Below are positions 1 through 59,028 of a stretch of 64,000 nucleotides of DNA, one piece after another; the stretch's first letter is position 1; each line of letters begins with the position of its first letter. Under the pieces are notes generated by a model, which was not told the DNA's origin, did not search any database, and worked only from the letters and a program-made list of their open reading frames with translations. Source of the DNA: Rhizophagus irregularis (taxonomy: Eukaryota; Glomeromycota; Glomeromycetes; Glomerales; Glomeraceae); assembly GCF_026210795.1 (NCBI RefSeq), contig NC_089447.1:3474501-3538500 (forward strand), written 5' to 3'. A program made the position numbers and the translations under genes.

Positions 1-1050
1 CCTATATTATTTAATAATTTTTTAAACAAAGAAATTAGTTAGTTTAAATTATATGCAAATATTATAACAATAAGTAATAATAAAATTAAATAAATAACTT
101 ATAACTTACGATCTATTAAATAAATAAAGAAATAAGTTATTTTAAATTATATGTAAATATTCTAACAATAAGTAATAATAGAATTAAATCAATAACTTAT
201 AACTTACCAACTAAAATAAATTACAAAATAATTTTTTAAATAAAGAAATTAGTTAGTTTAAATTATATGTAAATATTATAACAATAGAATTAAATAAATA
301 ACTTATAACTTACGATCTATTAAATAAATAAAGAAATTAGTTAGTTTTAATTATATGTTAATATTATAACATTAAGTAATAATAGAATTAAATAAATAAC
401 TTACTCCCTATATTATTTAATAATTTTTTAAATAAAGAAATTAGTAAGTTTAAATTATTTGTAAACATTATAACAATAAGTAATAATAGAATTAAATAAA
501 TAATTTATAACTTACGATCTATTAAATAAATAAAGAAATTAGTTAGTTTAAATTATATGTAAATATTATAACAATAAGTAATAATAAAATTAAATAAATA
601 ACTTACCCCCTATATTATTTAATTATTTTTTAAATAAAGAAATTAAGTGTAAATATTATAAACAATAAGTAATAATAAAATTAAATAAATAACCTATAAC
701 TTACGATCTATTAAATAAATAAAGAAATTAGTTAGTTTAAATTATATGTAAATATTATAACAATAAGTAATAATGGAATTAAATAAATAACTTACTCCCT
801 ATATTATTTAATAATTTTTTAAATAAAGAAATTAGTTAGTTTAAATTATATGTAAATATTATAACAATAAGTAACAATAAAATTAAATAAATAACTTACT
901 CCCTATATTATTTAATAATTTTTTAAATAAAGAAATTAGTTAGTTTAAATTATATGTAAATATTAGAACAATAAAGTAATAATAGAATTAAATAAATAAC
1001 TTACTCCCTATATTATTTAATGATTTTTTAAATAAAGAAATTAGTTAAAT
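1..1050. repeat. Tandem array of about 90-110-bp intron-like units
   Basis: About eleven units repeat the same AT-rich sequence. Read on the minus strand, each begins GTAAGTTATTTATTTAATTC, contains ACTAACTAAT and ends in ATAG. Two acceptor types tend to alternate, one ending TTTAATAG before ATC and one ending AATATAG before GGA or GGG, so the higher-order unit is about 200 bp in places. Copies differ by small indels and substitutions. Units between 1050 and 1480 keep the splice signals but have lost most sequence similarity, which suggests the array grew from that side. Confidence 0.85.
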
Positions 1051-1753
1051 TATATAAATAACATAAATATAGATATCATATAACTTACACCCTGTAGTAT
1101 TATTAATTAGTTAGATATAAAGATAATATAAAAGTATTTACTGTAAATTATATATTACTTACAATCTAGTTATTTAAATTAAAAATATAATTAGTTGAAT
1201 TATGTAAAATATTAAACAAATAAATATAATATTTATATTGTAACTTACCATCTGTAATACAATTAATTATTAAATAGTTATTTAAACAAAGAATTTAGTT
1301 ATTTGAATGTTGTGTAGAATAAATAAAGTAAAGGACTAAAGATTTAAATAACTGACAACTTACCAACTTCAGATTATTAATTATTGAATAAATTATTTAG
1401 TTATATGGAATACAATAAAAATAATAAGTATTTGAATTGTTTATAAATAAAAATTTAATATTTCAGTTTGTTTGATATACTTTTAGATTCTCCAGTGCCA
1501 CTTTCTTCAAATTCTTCAATATTAATGGAAACTAGTTTTGTTATATTGCAAATTTGGTTTAATTATATTTAATTATTTACAATTAAGTTTTTTTAATAAA
1601 TAAAAATCTTAATATTTCAATTTTGTTTTGTATATTATATTTACCTTCAGGTTCTTTGGTATATACAAAAACATTGCAAGTTTATTTTAATAATTTTGAA
1701 TAATTCTAATTTATATTATTATTCATGTTATATGCTTTACCTTTACCATCCAT
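1..1753 (-). CDS. Gene start followed by an array of 3-nt micro-exons (partial)
   Basis: Unrecognised protein, 5' end of a minus-strand gene that runs off the left edge. The start codon is at 1753-1751 and the first exon is 1753-1747 (ATGGATG, then donor GTAAAG). Exon 2 is 1653-1645 (9 nt, donor GTAAAT). Exon 3 is 1531-1481 (51 nt, donor GTATATC) and reads as an acidic segment ending EEFEESGTGESK. After it, fourteen successive sites show AG, then three bases, then GTAAGT. The 3-nt exons are at 1364, 1249, 1163, 1089, 1005, 900, 796, 705, 607, 516, 405, 314, 208 and 110. In the phase set by exon 3 they read IDDWWRRNRDRNLD with no stop. Introns are 71-114 nt, and those in the repeated part have a CTAAC/CTAAT branch point. 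Exon calls are from splice signals only. The array could instead be a tandem repeat inside one long intron, or a substrate for recursive splicing. Confidence 0.55.
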
Positions 1754-10284: not shown

Positions 10285-12280
10285 TTAATTTTTAGTGGAT
10301 TGATTATTATTTTGTAAAATCATTTGTTTCAAATCTTGAAGCTCTTGTTCAAGTTTTTGTACATATTGTAATGATAACTTTTTATCATTAGCAATTTGTG
10401 TTGATTCCTGTTCATGATTGTAATTATTATTGATTACTGGCTCTGGAATATGCGGTTGTACTATTTCTTTTCTATGATTAAAAATATGATCATTATTGGT
10501 TAATTCTACTATTTCTTGTCCATGATTAAAAATATGGTCATTATTGGGTAGTTCTACTATTTCTTGTCCATGATTAAAAATATTTTCATTTTTGAATGGT
10601 TGCACTATTTCTTGTCCGTAATTATGAACTTTATTTTCGACTTGATCGTTATCATCATCTTTACTTCTATTTTTATACCGTCTGTATTCAATAAAAATTA
10701 CTAAGGACAAGAAACCAACCCAAGTTCCTATAATTACACCAATTACCCCAATAATAAGTGATTTATTAATTGATGACGGTTCATTATTTGATGGTGGTGG
10801 TAAGCTGTTAAATTCGTTCGTCCATATATACTCAGTGACATTACTAATATCAAGCAATAAAATATCATTTTCAATTGAACGATTATATCCATCTCCTATT
10901 AAAATAATTAAATTTTGGTTAAATTCATATCAGTTAATTTAAATGGTGGTTCGTAAATATATTTACCAAATGATATAACCATATATTTGTCAATTACATT
11001 TGCTGCATGACCATAACGGAATGCCAAAGTTTGCCCAGATGTTTTTGGAATACGCCATTCAAAATTTATTAATTCTAATTCATAGAGTGGCGAATCTACA
11101 GGTTTAGGTGGTTTAGTAACATCCCTATAACCTCCATAAATGATTACCCTTTGACCGTCTAATCCTGTTGAAATAAATTAACTTAGTTCTTAATTCTGAA
11201 TAATATGATGATATTTTTGTTTGAAATACATACCAAGAACAGCGGTAAAACCGTTTCTGTAGGAAGATATTGTTCCTGAAGTAGACTATATTTAAATAAT
11301 ATATACAGTAATAAGCAATAATTTCTTTTATATTTATTTAGTTGATGATTTTATTAATCTACCTTTATATTCCAATTATCATTTATTGTATCATATATAT
11401 AAACCTGTATAAATAAATAGTTAATTAGTTGAACCGAAATATTTCTGTATAAAAATTCTATGTTCTAAAGGTTTATAACAAAGAGATAAAAAATGCTGAC
11501 GTTTTTTTGAAATAAAACGTAAATCTCAACGTTTTAACGTTAAATTATTGCAAAAATATTATATACCTGTAAATCTAGTAAATCTAAATAATAGAACAAG
11601 TATATAAGTGACATACATCATAATAAGTAATATTTGAATCATAAAAATTGTAAAATGAATTGCTTACCCATATAAATTATATTATTATCAGGCAATAAAG
11701 TGGCAGCATAACTCATACTTCTAATTGATGCAAAACTTCCTTTACCCCAAACAAGATTTACTGTATCTAAAATAAGCATATCACTATAAACATTCGTACG
11801 AATATCTAATCCACTCCATAAATACATTTTGCCCTTGTCGTCTATAATTCCGGTCAAAGAGTACTTTCTATGATAAGTATCACCAATTATCTTTGGAATA
11901 TTCCATAAATTGGTTTGTGGATCAAAGGTATAAACCAAATCCATAGAAGTGGGACCGAATCCCCCGTATAAGAATAACGTATTATTATTTGCACCACCTT
12001 TTACGGATGTAACAAACGTATGTTCTGGAATAGTATTAATGTTTGACAAATCTTTCACTATTAAATTTTGAGTATTAAATGGGACAGAAAAATCGATATA
12101 AAAAAAATCTTTTCCAACGTCACCATCCTCGGAACCACCAAAAATATATAATTTATTATAAATAAACGTTGCGGTATGTCCCCGCCGTTTCAAATTATAA
12201 GGTGTCATTTGGCAATTTATTTCAATTAATAATTGAAATAAAAACCATAATGTAATATACATTAAACTCTTTCGTAACAT
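10285..12280 (-). CDS. Kelch-repeat single-pass membrane protein (K1)
   Basis: Six exons: 12280-11668, 11583-11567, 11404-11363, 11285-11234, 11164-10967 and 10895-10285. All are GT-AG and sum to 1533 nt, 510 residues. The start at MLRKS is chosen over an upstream ATG because the paralogues begin at the same place. Residues 1-24 form a signal peptide ending EINCQ. A Kelch beta-propeller follows (RGHTATFIYNKLYIFGG, then VIIYGG and further GG turns) up to about residue 305. Next come a conserved NDILLLDIS and EYIWTNEF linker, one membrane helix (about 353-377), and a tail with about four repeats of the form IFNHGQEIVE, ending in a predicted coiled coil (QKLEQELQDLKQMIL). A cell-surface role with an outside propeller and cytoplasmic tail is inferred; the ligand is unknown. 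An 8-nt alternative exon 2 (11574-11567) is also in frame. Confidence 0.85.
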
Positions 12281-15137: not shown

Positions 15138-15670
15138 ATCATCCGTCAGATAATTTTTTTTTGGTATTACAAAATAGTTTTATCATTCGATTTAACGTTA
15201 ACGCAAATGAGACCGATATCATATGTATAGATAATATTTATTTCATGGCGTAGTGTAACGAATATTTTTTATGTTTATAATTTATTTTTTTGCTTTATTA
15301 AATTATGATATATACAAGCTTATATTAACAGAAGTATACTGAGAAATATTAAATTTATTTGACAAACTATTAAGTATAAAAAATAATGTATTGTAGGTTT
15401 TATTTTAGTGTTTAATGTTAAGAAAAAAATATAACAGATAAAGGTTTGTTTGGGAAACAATAATTTAGTAATTCAAACAAAATTACATACCACATTGAGA
15501 TGGGAATACCGCATTATTCTTTTGATTTGTTTGATAATAACATCCGAATTTATTCATGCCTTATTGTTTGTTTCAGTCTTGGATCTCTCGTTCAAGTTCT
15601 TGTACATATCATAATGTTAATAATGTCAACGATTGTAACTACTATTTATTACTGGATCTTGAGTTACCAG

Positions 15671-17444
15671 TTATACTATTTCTCGTCCATGATTAAATAT
15701 ACGTTCATTACTAGGTGGTTCTACTATTTCTTGTCCGTGATTGTGCATATTTTCATTATTGGATGATTCTACAAATTCTCGCCCATGATTATGAATATTT
15801 ACATTGTTGGATGATTCTAGTTCATAATTATGAATATTTCCATTATCAGGTGATGCTACTATTCCTTGTCCGTGATTAAAAATATTTTTTTCAGCTTGAC
15901 TCCTTTTATTCCACATATATAAAGCGAAAACAAATAAAGCACAAACAATCAAAGATCCTACAATAGCGCCTGTAATATTTACATTAACTTTTGATGGTTC
16001 ATTAAATGATTGTGCTGATATATTTGATGATGTAGGATCATATTCATTTGTCCAAATATATTCATCTTTATTGCTAATATCAAGTAATAGAATATCATTT
16101 TCTTCTGATTCGTTATAACCCAATCCTATTAAAGTTATTTGTTATTTATATATTTGGTTAAATTCATATAAAATCAATTTAAATAATAGTTTAAAAATAC
16201 AATTACCAAATGATACAACCATATATTTTCCAATTACATTTGCTCGATGTGAAGTTCGGGACGCTGGAGTTTTCCCAGAAGTTTTCGGAATACGCCACTC
16301 ATAATTTATTAAATTTAATTCATAAAGTGATGAATCTACAGGTTTGGCATTACTAGAACCTCCATAAATGATTACCCTTTGACCGTCTAATCCTATTAAA
16401 ATAAAATTGTATCTTAATTTAAATACGATATTTGTTTAACAATATTATTATTTAAATACATACCAAGGACAGCGGATGCTCCTAGTTTATTAGGAGGCAT
16501 TGTTCCCGAAGTTATCTATATTTAAATTAATGTTTAGTACTAAGTTATTTATAATTAATTGATAATTAACATTTATAATTACTTACTTTCGTACTCCAAG
16601 TATCATTTATTATATCATATATATAAACCTATATATATAAATAATTATTTTACTAACCTAGAACAAAATTTTTGTCTAAAAAGAATCCAATAAAAATCAT
16701 TATTAAATTTATTTTTTGATTTCAATACCTTTATTAAACTACTGGCACTACTATCTAAATAATAAAGTAATAAATAAAAATAAAAATGAAAAATAGGAAA
16801 ATAATAAATAATGTCAGAATAACAAAGAATGACGGAATTACTTGCTTACCTATATAGATTATCTTATTATTAGGTAATAAAGTGGTAGCACTTTTCAATC
16901 CAATATTTGGTGCACCAATTGAACTCCTCGTTTCCCAAATTAAATTTTTTGTATCTAAAATGGCGATAATATCACCAATTCCATCCCAGAAATACATTTT
17001 TCCATCATGGTCGATAGTTCCTATTGAAGCATCATAAAGAATAGGTATTACACCGGTTGTTACTGGAGTATTCCATGAATTATTTTGCGGATTAAATGTG
17101 TGAACAGATGACAACTTAATAGCTCCTGCATTTTCGATTATGAACAACGTATCATTAATTGCACCACCCCTTGCGGACCCAGCACCGAAATGTGAAGGAA
17201 TAGTATTAATGCTTGATAAATCTTTTATTAATAAATTTTGAGTATTAAACGGGACAGAAAAATCGAAATAAAAAAAATCTTTCCCAACATTATTAGTTGA
17301 GAGACCACCCAAAATATATAATTTTTTATCAATAAGCGTTGCAGTATGTTCGCTTCGTTCCTTATCTATAGAAGGAAATGTTTGACAATTTATTTCAATT
17401 AAGAATTGAAAAATAAACAATAATATAAAATACTTTTGTAACAT
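15671..17444 (-). CDS. Kelch-repeat single-pass membrane protein (K2)
   Basis: Six exons: 17444-16850, 16754-16729, 16628-16587, 16515-16464, 16392-16207 and 16125-15671. They join in frame to 1356 nt, 451 residues. The start at MLQKYF matches K1 and K4. Residues 1-21 form a signal peptide ending EINCQ. The propeller (SEHTATLIDKKLYILGG; VIIYGG) runs to about 298. The NDILLLDIS and EYIWTNEY linker follows, then a membrane helix at about 351-373 and a tail with about five HNHGQEIV-type repeats. The frame stops inside the last repeat (GREIV, TAA at 15673-15671). Sequence beyond the stop (to about 15575) still resembles the K1 tail (QDPVINSSYN, QELERE), so K2 has lost its terminal coiled coil by a recent nonsense or frame change. 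Function as for K1 is inferred. Confidence 0.83.
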
Positions 17445-24639: not shown

Positions 24640-25870
24640 TATAATTAAAAAAAAATCATTTTTTTTTTAATTTTTAATAACAAAAACGTCAAGTCTGACG
24701 TTTTTAATTAAAAAAATATTTTTTTTTGATTTTTAATAACAAAAAACGTCAAGTCTGACGTTTTTAATTAAAAAAAATATTTTTTTTTGATTTTTAATAA
24801 CAAAAAACGTCAAGTCTGATGTTTTTAATTAAAAAAAATATTTTTTTTTTGATTTTTAATAACAAAAAACGTCAAGTCTGACGTTTTTAATTAAAAAAAT
24901 CACTTTTTTTTTATTTTTAATAACAAAAAACGTCAAGTTTGACGTTTTTAATTAAAAAAAATATTTTTTTTGATTTTTAATAACAAAAAACGTCAAGTCT
25001 GACGTTTTTAATTAAAAAATATATTTTTTTTTTGATTTTTAATAACAAAAAACGTCAAGTCTGACGTTTTTAATTAAAAAAAATATTTTTTTTGATTTTT
25101 AATAACAAAAAACGTCAAGTCTGACGTTTTTAATTAAAAAAAAATCATTTTTTTTGCAAAAAACGTCAAGTCTGACATTTTTGATTAATAAAATCATTTT
25201 TTTTGATTTTTAATAACAAAAAACGTCAAGTCTGACGTTTTTAATTAAAAAAAATATTTTTTTTTGATTTTTAATAACAAAAAACGTCAAGTCTGACGTT
25301 TTTAATTAAAAAAAAATCATTTTTTTTGATTTTAATAACAAAAAACGTCAAGTCTGACGTTTTTAATTAAAAAAAATATTTTTTTTTTGATTTTTAATAA
25401 CAAAAAACGTCAAGTCTGACGTTTTTAATTAAAAAAAATATTTTTTTTTGATTTTTAATAACAAAAAACGTCAAGTCTGACGTTTTTAATTAAAAAAAAT
25501 ATTTTTTTTGATTTTTAATAACAAAAAACGTCAAGTCTGACGTTTTTAATTAAAATATATATATATTTTTTTTGATTTTTAATAACAAAAAACGTCAAGT
25601 CTGACGTTTTTAATTAAAAAATATATTTTTTTTTTGATTTTTAATAACAAAAAACGTCAAGTCTGACGTTTTTAATTAAAAAAAAATCATTTTTTTTGAT
25701 TTTAATAACAAAAAACGTCAAGTCTGACATTTTTGATTAATAAAATCATTTTTTTTTGATTTTTAATAACAAAAAACGTCAAGTCTGACTTTTTTAATTA
25801 AAAAATTTAATTTTTTTTTGTTTTTTAATCAAGTTTTTGACATTTTTAATTAAAAAAAAAAATTTTTCAC
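24640..25870. repeat. 60-bp satellite with an ACGTCA/TGACGT palindrome
   Basis: About nineteen tandem units of close to 60 bp, plus a degenerate last one. Each is built from GATTTTTAATAACAAAA, then the palindromic core ACGTCAAGTCTGACGT, then TTTTAATT and runs of A and T. The cores are nearly identical; length variation sits in the homopolymers. The array lies in the compound insertion that splits G1. Each core contains two TGACGT half sites of the kind bound by bZIP (CRE-type) factors. Confidence 0.9.
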
Positions 25871-29416: not shown

Positions 29417-29733
29417 GACGACCATAGCGTCGCCTCCAAAAAATGGTAGCCGGATTATTTTGCCGGTTCTTTAGTGTTAGGGTTAGGATTAGGGTTGGGA
29501 TTAGGGTAAGGGGATTAGGATTAGGATTAGGGTAAGGGGATTAAGGGTTAAGAATTCGTCACATAATGTCACACCTAACGTTTCTTTAATTTTATAATTA
29601 TTCTGAGGACTTAGAAAATTTTTTATACGTAAAGTACTAAATGTCACGTATTATTTATCACCTCTCAATAATATATGTAACCCGGCAAATTAGAACCGGC
29701 TACCATTTTTTGGAGGCGACGCTAGGGTGGTTT
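29417..29733. mobile_element. MULE-like MITE carrying telomere-like repeats
   Basis: Long inverted ends meet at TAGCGTCGCCTCCAAAAAAT, followed by GGTAGCCGG on both sides. The flanks share GCGTGACC (29409-29416 and 29734-29741). The same ends, with minor changes, bound the element at 34501-35666. The interior includes repeats of TTAGGG type. A further outer match TATATATCAT (29387 and 29742) suggests a more complicated history. Confidence 0.65.
29475..29551 (+). repeat. Interstitial telomere-like repeats
   Basis: About ten imperfect units of TTAGGG, GATTAGGG and TAAGGGGATTAGG in a row, inside the small element at 29417-29733. TTAGGG is the usual telomeric unit of filamentous fungi. The array is short and degenerate, so it is interstitial and not a chromosome end. 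Confidence 0.8.
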
Positions 29734-56687: not shown

Positions 56688-59028
56688 TTAATTATTACTC
56701 GTAGAACTAGTAGATTGTTTATTATTTTGTAAAATTATTTGTTTCAAATCTTGAATTTCTTGTTTAAGTATTTGTATTTCATAATTAGCAATTGGAACAG
56801 ATTCTCGTCCGTGATTATAATTCGTATTAATTATTGAAGCTGGAGCGGGAGGTTGTACTATTTCTTGTCCAGGGTGATAATTACTTTCATTTCTATTATC
56901 ATTATTTATCACTTCAGGTTGTTGTACAATTTCCTGTCCGGGATAATAATTATTTCTTTCGGTTTGATAATTATTATCACCATTTTCATTTCTATTTCTT
57001 CTATCTTTAACATTATTAATTACTACGGGTTGTTGTAATTCATTTCTATTTCTTCTATCTTTAACATTATTAATTGCTACGGGTTGTTGTACTTCATTTC
57101 TATTTCTTCTATTATTAACATCATAAATTACTATGGGTTGCCGTACTTCATTTCTATTTCTTCTATCATTAACATTATTAATTGCTACGGGTTGTTGTAC
57201 TATTTCTTGCCTAGGATTAGAATTATTACTATTAGCTTGATTATAATAAACAACATTTCTATTTATATCATTATTAATTAATGAAGCTGGAACGGGTATT
57301 TGTATGGTATAATTACTTCCATATATCATTCTATTCATTCTATTGTTACATTTTCTAAGTAAAATGGATACTACAATGATAAATGCACCACCGCAAATCA
57401 ACAATATTACAGTTACGCCAGTTGAAATTTTATTAGAATTTTGGTCATTATATCCCGAAGAAACCGAAGAAACTTTTGGCGATAAAGATGACGAAGTTGG
57501 CGATAAAAATGACGAAGTTCCCGTTATTGCTATTGGTGCTGGTGGTGTTGCTAATGCTAATAATTTGGCTGATGATAAAGATGTTGCTGGTGCTGGTGTT
57601 GCTAATGCTAATAATTTGGCTGATGATAAAGATTTAAATTCATTCGTCCATATATATTCGTTTATATTACTGATGTCAAGTAACAGAATATCATTTTCAT
57701 TATTTTTCTTATAACCTGATCCTATTAAAATTTATTATAACTTGGTTAATATTTTTATTAAACTAATTTAAATAATAGTTTTAAAAAGTATATTTACCAA
57801 ATGATAATACCATATAATTTCCAATTACATTTGCTTTATGATGACTTCGGGACGCTGGAATTGACCCAGAAGATTTCGGGATACGCCATTCAAAATTTAT
57901 TAAATTTAATTCATGAAGTTGATCTTGCGTCGCAGAGACAAAACCTCCAAAGGTGATTATTCTTTTACCATCTAATCCTATTAAAATATAATTACATCTT
58001 ATTTTAAAACACAGAAAATAATTTGATAATATTATTGTTTATATACATACCAAGAACAGCGGATCCTCCATCTTTTTTAGGTGGTATCGTACCTGTAGTT
58101 GTCTATAATTTAATAAAAAAAAATGCTTAGTAGTAAGAAGTCTTTTACAATTAATTGATAATTTATATTTACTTACTTTCTTACTCCAATTATTGTTTAC
58201 TGTATCATATATATAAACCTATATAAATAATTAGTTAAACTAACTAACCCAGAACAAAATTTTATCGGAAAAAAAACAATACTTCAAATTGAAATTTATT
58301 TATTGATTTCAATACCTCTGCTAAATTACCGGTATTACTACTATCTAAATAATGATAAAAAAATGACATATATAAAGATAATAAATACAAAGAATTATAG
58401 AATTACTTTGCTTACCTATATAAATTATCTTGTTATCAGGCAATAAAATGGAAGAACTCGCCGCTCCAATATTTTGTGTACCAATCGGATTTACTTTTTT
58501 CCAAACTAAATTTATTGTATCTAAAATATTAATATCAGATACATCTAATGCACTCAAGATATAGATATCATAGTTTATAGTTGTCATATCACAATCTACA
58601 AGAAATGGTTTGTCTCCTGCTATTTTTGGAATACTCCATGAATTACTTCGTGGATTAAATGTGTTAACTAATTCCATAGTAGCATATTTGACATTACTGA
58701 GGCCTCCACATATAAACAACGTATCATTATTTGTGCCACCTATCGCGGATCCAGCATTATAATGAGGAGAAAGAGTATTAATATTTGTTAAATCATTCAC
58801 TTTTAAATTTTGAGTATTAAATGAGACAGAAAAATCGATATAAAAAAATTCGTTTCCAATTTCTTCAAGTGGGAAACCACCCAAAATATACAATTTTTTA
58901 TCAAAAAGCGTTGCAGTATGACCACGCCGTTCTTTTAGTACATAGGGTGATATTTGGCAATTTATTTCAATAAATAATTGAAATAAAAACCACAATATAA
59001 TAATATAAAATCGATGTATTTGCAACAT
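56688..59028 (-). CDS. Kelch-repeat single-pass membrane protein (K4)
   Basis: Six exons: 59028-58416, 58344-58316, 58218-58177, 58102-58051, 57977-57798 and 57721-56688. They join in frame to 1950 nt, 649 residues. Residues 1-25 form a signal peptide ending EINCQ. The Kelch propeller (RRGHTATLFDKKLYILGG, TLFICGG, IITFGG) runs to about 305, followed by NDILLLDIS and EYIWTNEF as in K1. Unlike K1 and K2 there is then a Ser/Ala/Pro-rich stalk with a duplicated LSSAKLLALATP unit. The membrane helix is at about 406-427. A 220-residue tail follows, with four repeats of QQPVAINNVKDRRNRNE type, two PGQEIVQ units and a C-terminal coiled coil (LKQEIQDLKQIIL). A cell-surface sensor or adhesin role is inferred. 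The open frame on the other strand at 57343-57714 is a shadow. Confidence 0.85.
56990..57230. repeat. Coding minisatellite in the K4 tail
   Basis: About four tandem copies of a roughly 60-bp unit containing TTGCTACGGGTTGTTGTACT and TTCATTTCTATTTCTTCTAT. They encode the 20-residue tail repeats of K4. Unit length is a multiple of three, so gain or loss keeps frame. Confidence 0.8.

Follow-up and report, generated by a model that had tools for sequence, protein, structure and literature searches.

In the general view of exon recognition, exons must be long enough to accommodate splicing factors. Among the closest described systems are the MEG genes of Schistosoma, whose exons are mostly of 15 bp, with a range given as 6–81 bp in the text and 3–81 in the abstract of that paper; each gene contains 10–20 exons separated by introns of 0.1–5 kb, and the products are secreted proteins (PMC10526429). 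The Arabidopsis gene APC11 harbours a constitutive single-nucleotide exon that has been shown experimentally (PMC4674806). Isolated 3-nt exons are documented in fungi, two of them in lipS of Dactylellina, as are stwintrons (PMC5639578). The aphid bicycle and megacycle genes, which form a divergent family, accommodate many microexons per gene, more than 100 in the case of megacycle (PMC9168663). The exons of these aphid genes are longer and varied. In recursive splicing, ratchet points consist of an acceptor directly before a donor, and removal proceeds stepwise without any sequence being added. No account of arrays like those presented here was found in the open-licence literature searched, whether on microexons of Rhizophagus irregularis or wider, an absence that is not proof.

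The locus considered here lies at one end of a 64,000-nt stretch of the R. irregularis genome, hereafter the window, on contig C19, and continues into L001 (C19:3464501-3474500 of genome G000), the segment directly to the left. Its defining feature is an array of 3-nt exons which, with a probability of roughly 0.88, forms the central part of a gene for a protein kinase and encodes a linker one codon per exon. The splicing itself is inferred, as no RNA supports it. What the sequence establishes is the reading frame, the recurrence of the arrangement and selection against stops solely at consecutive junctions.

Organization of the array gene

The whole window contains 16 exact AG-NNN-GTAAGT sites against 1.0 expected, a number that none of 100 shuffles attains, and 14 of the 16 are minus-strand sites at 104-1368. 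The donor-to-donor spacing of this window array is 74–115 nt, corresponding to introns of 71–112 nt. A first-pass annotation had reported fourteen successive minus-strand sites of this type, and this claim held; its wording of at least fourteen reflects only what the window holds, the array being larger and extending left into L001.

All features of the gene lie on the minus strand. Exon 1 (1747..1753), ATGGATG, provides the start codon and is in phase 1 at its end; the paralogs have a longer exon 1 in the same place. Exon 2 (1645..1653), of 9 nt, leaves the phase unchanged and has a similar counterpart in L008. Exon 3 (1481..1531), of 51 nt, is acidic (SINIEEFEESGTGESK), ends in phase 1 and is followed by the donor GTATAT; an exon like it is found ahead of the array in many paralogs. 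These upstream exons, which had been proposed to read MDEPEV...GESK with agreeing phases, are confirmed. The micro-exons then succeed one another as TTG (1364..1366), ATG (1249..1251), ATT (1163..1165), GGT (1089..1091), GGA (1005..1007), GGA (900..902), GGA (796..798), ATC (705..707), GGG (607..609), ATC (516..518), GGA (405..407), ATC (314..316), TTG (208..210) and ATC (110..112), and the peptide previously read from them, IDDWWRRNRDRNLD, is likewise confirmed. GGT forms a Trp with the preceding ATT, and a Trp is present within the first six residues in 24 of 37 called chains. The fifteenth micro-exon, GAT, straddles window base 1 (window 1..1 and L001:9999-10000), and the remainder of the array runs on into L001, to L001:7990. 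It is followed by a 1-nt exon, ‘A’ (L001:7909), and by the kinase exons at L001:7838-7625, 7545-6663 and 6583-6455 and then a short last exon.

Counted in full, the array has 34 exons of 3 nt plus a single exon taken as 6 nt, after which come the 1-nt exon and the kinase. The L001 site AG-AGGGTA-GTAAGT is ambiguous and can be read as 6 nt (adopted), as 4 nt (GGTA) or as 3 nt (AGG) with the donor GTAGTA. When spliced in order, the exons form a single open frame of 474 codons and a stop, from the ATG to the kinase end, which passes through 35 short exons and the 1-nt exon before entering the kinase exons. The introns of the gene (n=35) all end in TAG or CAG, 24 of them in ATAG; CTAAC occurs in 22 and either CTAAC or CTAAT in 30. 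The earlier statement that the repeated introns have a CTAAC branch point and an ATAG acceptor is therefore true for most introns and not for all. Donors of the longer exons (window 1480; L001 7624, 6662 and 6454) are of types such as GTATAT, GTATGA and GTATGT. Those of micro-exons are mostly GTAAGT (1073 of 1259 units), a count biased by the search, as the scoring matrix was trained on GT[AG][AG]GT.

Residues 88–337 of the predicted protein match Pfam PF07714 with E=2.5e-41, and the kinase domain scores above the curated cut-offs (142.1 and 126.6 bits for PF07714 and PF00069, against 23.1 and 31.7). The catalytic residues of kinases are the K of VAIK, the D of HRD and the D of DFG. VILK, HCDFHDGN and DLG are recognizable in the predicted protein, by eye only, and activity is untested. 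The predicted N-terminus, MDEPEVSINIEEFEESGTGESK, is hydrophilic on inspection, no predictor having been run.

The window also carries repeats of other kinds. A satellite at 24642-25829 consists of 61-bp units in ~19.6 copies with 90% matches and a palindromic AACGTCAAGTCTGACGTT core, and ~11 copies of an interstitial telomere-like TTAGGG repeat occupy 29471-29550. Further tandem repeats, at 10459-10624, 15670-15819 and 56985-57201, have units of 48 and 54 nt, lengths divisible by three, and are possibly coding.

A genome-wide family of kinase loci

The genome (146.7 Mb, 32 contigs), in which an EF1-alpha primer employed for R. irregularis (PMC4153046) has a single exact match, was searched with sequence patterns, their reversed versions serving as controls. 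A short-gap pattern, consisting of a donor, 58–88 nt, AG-N3-donor, a further 58–88 nt and AG-N3-donor, is matched at 1202 places against 25 in the control. The equivalent with 2 bases is matched at none (control 11) and that with 4 bases at one (control 1). A long-gap 3-nt pattern (90–118 nt, GTRAGT donors) identifies 914 places against 34, and a pattern for the 3' end of arrays (TTG exon, intron, 1-nt exon) identifies 99 against 0. Of the 15 kinase loci drawn from C1 and C2, this last pattern recovers 7, from which a rough extrapolation leads to ~200 genes; ~6,800 micro-exons genome-wide is a similarly rough extrapolation, scaled from the ~560 exons in loci that give 99 of the 1202 short-gap places.

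The first kinase exon has at least 151 matches (150 of 4076 candidates scored). A kinase exon follows the array in each of the 30 loci that make up the first two sets described below, and in L031–L037, where the sequence retrieved extends only slightly beyond the array, a match occupies the expected place in 7 of 7. Arrays often open with exons of the type CTC TTG ATG/AAA ATT GGT, which yield AL-(D/E)-(D/N)-W, and frequently end with CTT, TTG, then A. Among the listed short-gap places (100 of 1202), 99 fall within the 15 kinase loci and a single one, C1:1726858, outside, in what proved to be a second array; the listed long-gap places (100 of 914) are divided between loci with a kinase exon (79) and this second array (21). 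The longest kinase array fetched, L012 with L039, accommodates 67 called units and 14 further AG-NNN-GT[AG]AGT sites.

The manner in which loci were chosen bears on some of these figures. L002–L016 were selected by a pattern requiring 3-nt exons and GTAAGT. L017–L030 were hand-chosen for unlike-looking introns among the 99 3'-end-pattern places, at which the TTG and 1-nt exons are required, and L031–L037 were drawn from the same 99 for their alike last introns. Because the loci were selected by such patterns, neither their exon lengths nor the tally of 1-nt exons is independent evidence, a bias that leaves the stop test unaffected. In L036 the called chain covers the first half of its stretch only.

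Stops at exon junctions

Exon chains were called by a script that relies on splice-signal scores only and uses no coding information. Units of 3 nt account for 594 of 620 called in 16 loci (first set), 414 of 454 in 14 further loci (second set) and 1190 of 1259 overall, the overall count tallying one-base units after AG as 3-nt exons AGN. With the reading phase taken from exon 3, each phase-1 codon takes its first base from the end of one exon and its other two from the start of the following exon, ~94 nt away. Runs were cut at non-3-nt exons and at gaps exceeding 150 nt, and the junctions there were excluded from the stop count.

Phase-1 junction stops are absent from the first set (0/548, against 20.4 in within-run shuffles) and from the second (0/366, against 19.8 shuffled). 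Across all 37 loci there is one in 1067, in locus L034, where 45.6 (sd 5.1) are expected from shuffled order. The all-locus exon pairs read backwards give 60 stops, and the other phases of the 37 loci contain 174 (phase 2) and 5 (phase 0). Only one of 435 distinct ordered exon pairs gives a stop. Exons that are themselves TGA or TAA (5 of 1170 in runs, noted for L017–L030) are tolerated because the frame is phase 1.

Joins that skip exons present a different picture. When one exon is skipped (i to i+2), stops occur at chance level, with 19/504 against 18.9 and 15/324 against 17.0 in the two sets, and longer skips give stops roughly at or above chance. These figures bear on a combinatorial cassette model, according to which free exon skipping would generate very many in-frame linkers per gene. 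In its favour, nearly all exons are multiples of three in one phase, so that most subsets stay in frame. Against it, joins skipping one to four exons are not depleted of stops (with three skipped, i to i+4, 26/420 against 16.4 in the first set), and skipped products are therefore unprotected by selection. The model appears unlikely, and low-level exon skipping remains possible. As stops are avoided only at in-order joins, selection must act on the fully spliced consecutive product, a constraint that favours constitutive inclusion and disfavours free skipping. The micro-exons are very likely coding exons that are normally all included, their splicing being inferred from the sequence without RNA.

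The same counts address the alternative raised in the first-pass annotation, a natural recursive-splicing ladder. On this non-coding account, the array is one long intron removed stepwise, with the 3-nt leftovers incidental or skipped. An AG closely before GTAAGT does look like a ratchet point, the frame survives skipping of the whole array, and the 109 places elsewhere that match a 4-nt pattern imply that not every array need keep frame. Against the ladder stand the near-absence of junction stops in the kinase loci (1/1067 versus 45.6), a length-0 unit called only once among the 1259 in kinase loci and, at the usual intron length, the finding of no 2-nt arrays and of one 4-nt array. Nothing in a non-coding ladder would keep stops out of the joins between neighbouring exons; it is for this reason not supported, and is regarded as very unlikely. 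The other reading offered at the outset, a protein built one codon per exon, is strongly supported by the frame into the kinase domain, by genome-wide recurrence and by the near-absence of junction stops for in-order neighbours only, with the proviso that there is no transcript and splicing is inferred. Stepwise removal that leaves one codon per step is a likely inference.

A third rival is a neutral intronic minisatellite, that is, a tandem repeat whose unit merely contains AG-NNN-GTAAGT. The arrays are indeed tandem repeats, and recent unit duplications are evident, such as five like TTG units in L031. This explanation is all but excluded by stop avoidance, by the 3-nt length of 1190 of 1259 units, by the disparity in G+C between exons (38%) and introns (9.5%), and by the similarity of first and last exons among loci.

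Departures from the coding pattern are few. Lengths that are not multiples of three are seen in 9 of 1259 units, besides 32 terminal 1-nt exons; these include three in L031, of 2, 2 and 4 nt, and one of 2 nt in L019. Concatenated chains contain stops at gaps or non-3-nt exons in eight loci (L008, L010, L012, L021, L024, L027, L029 and L030). Off-length or stop-bearing copies are interpreted here as decaying or misread. Screening of 29 gaps of 150–260 nt for missed exons returned a candidate with another donor in three. Away from array ends (759 junctions), Glu is more frequent than in shuffles (z 3.5) and Gly (-3.0) and His (-3.7) less so; the shuffles include stops, which slightly inflates positive z values, and these shifts constitute a weak sign of residue-level selection.

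Exon phases and the 1-nt exon

In the first set, 12 of 13 loci with a motif-found kinase exon have an acceptor that leaves one base before the frame, and these also have a TTAG-A-GTAAG-like site no more than 330 nt upstream. The exception, L004, has extra sequence there, and L005 has a second possible acceptor. All 12 rows of the second set fit the 1-nt exon arrangement, but these loci had been selected by that site. A rough script assigned the exon-1 candidates of the first-set loci to phase 1 in 13 of 16 and to phase 0 in two and found none in one, several candidates being apparently truncated by an internal GTAA. In all 12 loci where an exon ahead of the array was found, its length is a multiple of three; L008 has one more, overlong candidate for which this does not hold. 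Given these phases, the kinase would be out of frame without the 1-nt exon. Skipping of the whole array also keeps the frame, and a minor isoform of this type is possible and not excluded.

Introns and variation between copies

Array introns have a mean length of 94 nt (sd 11; n=1003), and CTAAC is present in 508 of 1178 against 3 in reversed introns. A structure joining both intron ends was considered and rejected: in 240 sampled introns, folding stability does not exceed that of dinucleotide shuffles (mean z 0.34), nor is pairing between the two ends elevated (4.10 versus 4.49).

Variation was examined in 214 within-locus pairs with alike far flanks, defined by a mean of at least 90% at 16–40 nt on both sides. 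At bases outside this selection, up to 15 nt from the exon, differences affect 0–7% of pairs, but for the three bases of the exon the figures are 20, 22 and 35%. When flanks are selected on one side, the far flank opposite varies to about the same extent as the exon. Where the 72-nt flanks are identical, the exons differ in 83 of 97 pairs between loci and in 52 of 166 within loci; these pairs overlap, and many come from two groups of loci. The upstream DNA of 15 locus pairs with a long alignment is 80–93% identical, and some array introns therefore resemble one another across loci more closely than the DNA around them does. Two explanations stand undecided, homogenisation of the introns that leaves the codons as they are, and a drive towards codon change. 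Linkers differ between closely related copies (L031–L034). Introner elements are near-identical introns that have spread into genes throughout a genome; here, near-identical introns are found across many kinase loci, with other gene families barely represented in the sample.

An origin by 3-nt target-site duplication was set aside: neighbouring exons share the same sequence in 89 of 950 pairs (9.4%), a chance-level proportion (9.2% expected) that provides no support for it. A search of the genome for spliced retrocopies with one 18-base pattern detected no exact copies of a spliced 5' junction; one-mismatch matches number 21 against 5 in the control. An ill-designed pattern with CTAAC directly after the donor gave 1 match (control 10).

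A second array and 4-nt patterns

The second array comprises 67 AG-N3-donor sites, the last doubtful, at C1:1723676-1731575 (L040–L044). Its intron is unlike that of the kinase arrays, with TTAAATTACCAG often before and GTAAGTATAA after, and the spacing is mostly 92–132 nt. An open frame of 930 codons with a coiled-coil look follows at 1731633 and shows a C-terminal match to AIG1-type GTPases (PF04548, E=1.7e-17); array and GTPase-like frame are inferred to belong to the same gene. Stops in phases 0, 1 and 2 number 3, 5 and 0 against 3.0, 3.4 and 0.9 in shuffles, a test that over 62 junctions has no power. Phase 2 is the sole open phase, and the coding status is left undecided.

The 4-nt pattern with longer gaps (90–118 nt, GTRAGT donors) is matched at 109 places against 15 in the control, for example at C5:4369508-4370012 and C2:3700354-3700716. 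None of the listed 4-nt places lies inside the fetched kinase loci, and several are paired 4 bases apart, suggesting GTAAGTAAGT donors. The matches suggest that arrays are not all of 3 nt, the sequence at those places not having been read.

A model for linker assembly

In the proposed model, the linker would sit between the acidic N-terminus and the kinase domain. Each ~94-nt intron carries a strong donor (GTAAGT in most cases) and an AG acceptor of its own, and in many instances a CTAAC or CTAAT branch motif. Removal of all introns in order would join the 3-nt exons in phase 1, and the conserved 1-nt exon would then bring the reading into phase with the kinase exon. The likely route, which is inferred, is intron definition in which the introns are removed in order: each removal would fuse a codon to the growing upstream exon and thus render the next strong donor usable. 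This growing-exon route is put forward because an exon of 3 nt is too short for acceptor and donor complexes to occupy it simultaneously. The linker may be a rapidly changing spacer or a docking segment of variable length, which is a guess.

A bolder reading envisages genome-wide tandem duplication of units of intron plus codon, through which proteins would grow residue by residue. Introns would be kept alike, codons would be free or driven to change, and ratchet-like ordered splicing would write the linker; the origin of the arrangement would not be confined to a single gene family, kinases with hypervariable linkers being the chief case. As a joint claim, this is less likely than not.

Serial 3-nt exons in their thousands, by extrapolation, with a selected product would offer a test bed for intron definition, splicing order and fidelity. 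Standard aligners and annotation probably miss 3-nt exons, and current annotations of this important plant symbiont may, by inference, contain truncated members of the large kinase family. The unit of intron plus codon permits residues to be gained or lost one at a time without harm to the frame, which could allow proteins to vary rapidly.

Comparison with known systems

Like the Schistosoma MEG genes, the kinase arrays string together very short exons whose lengths are mostly divisible by three, and they are difficult to annotate. They differ in that nearly all exons are of 3 nt, with tens per gene and introns of ~94 nt. Two MEG criteria are not met: exons of 6–81 nt, given that 1190 of 1259 units are of 3 nt, and an N-terminal signal peptide, given an N-terminus that is hydrophilic by inspection. 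The aphid bicycle and megacycle genes are comparable in their wealth of microexons and in belonging to a divergent family, but encode another class of protein. Recursive splicing calls for zero-length exons, a criterion that 1 of 1259 units fulfils, and whereas ratchet points add nothing, each step in a kinase array would add one codon. The 1-nt exon finds its likeness in APC11, where such an exon is also required for frame; that case concerns one gene, whereas the ‘A’ exon of the kinases is family-wide and inferred from sequence. The arrays do not meet the definition of stwintrons, as each of the 3-nt exons is flanked by a separate acceptor and donor and no intron lies inside a splice site. 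They share with Dactylellina lipS and with stwintrons the presence of 3-nt exons between fungal introns and consecutive splicing, the difference being one of scale: two such exons in lipS, and whole arrays here.
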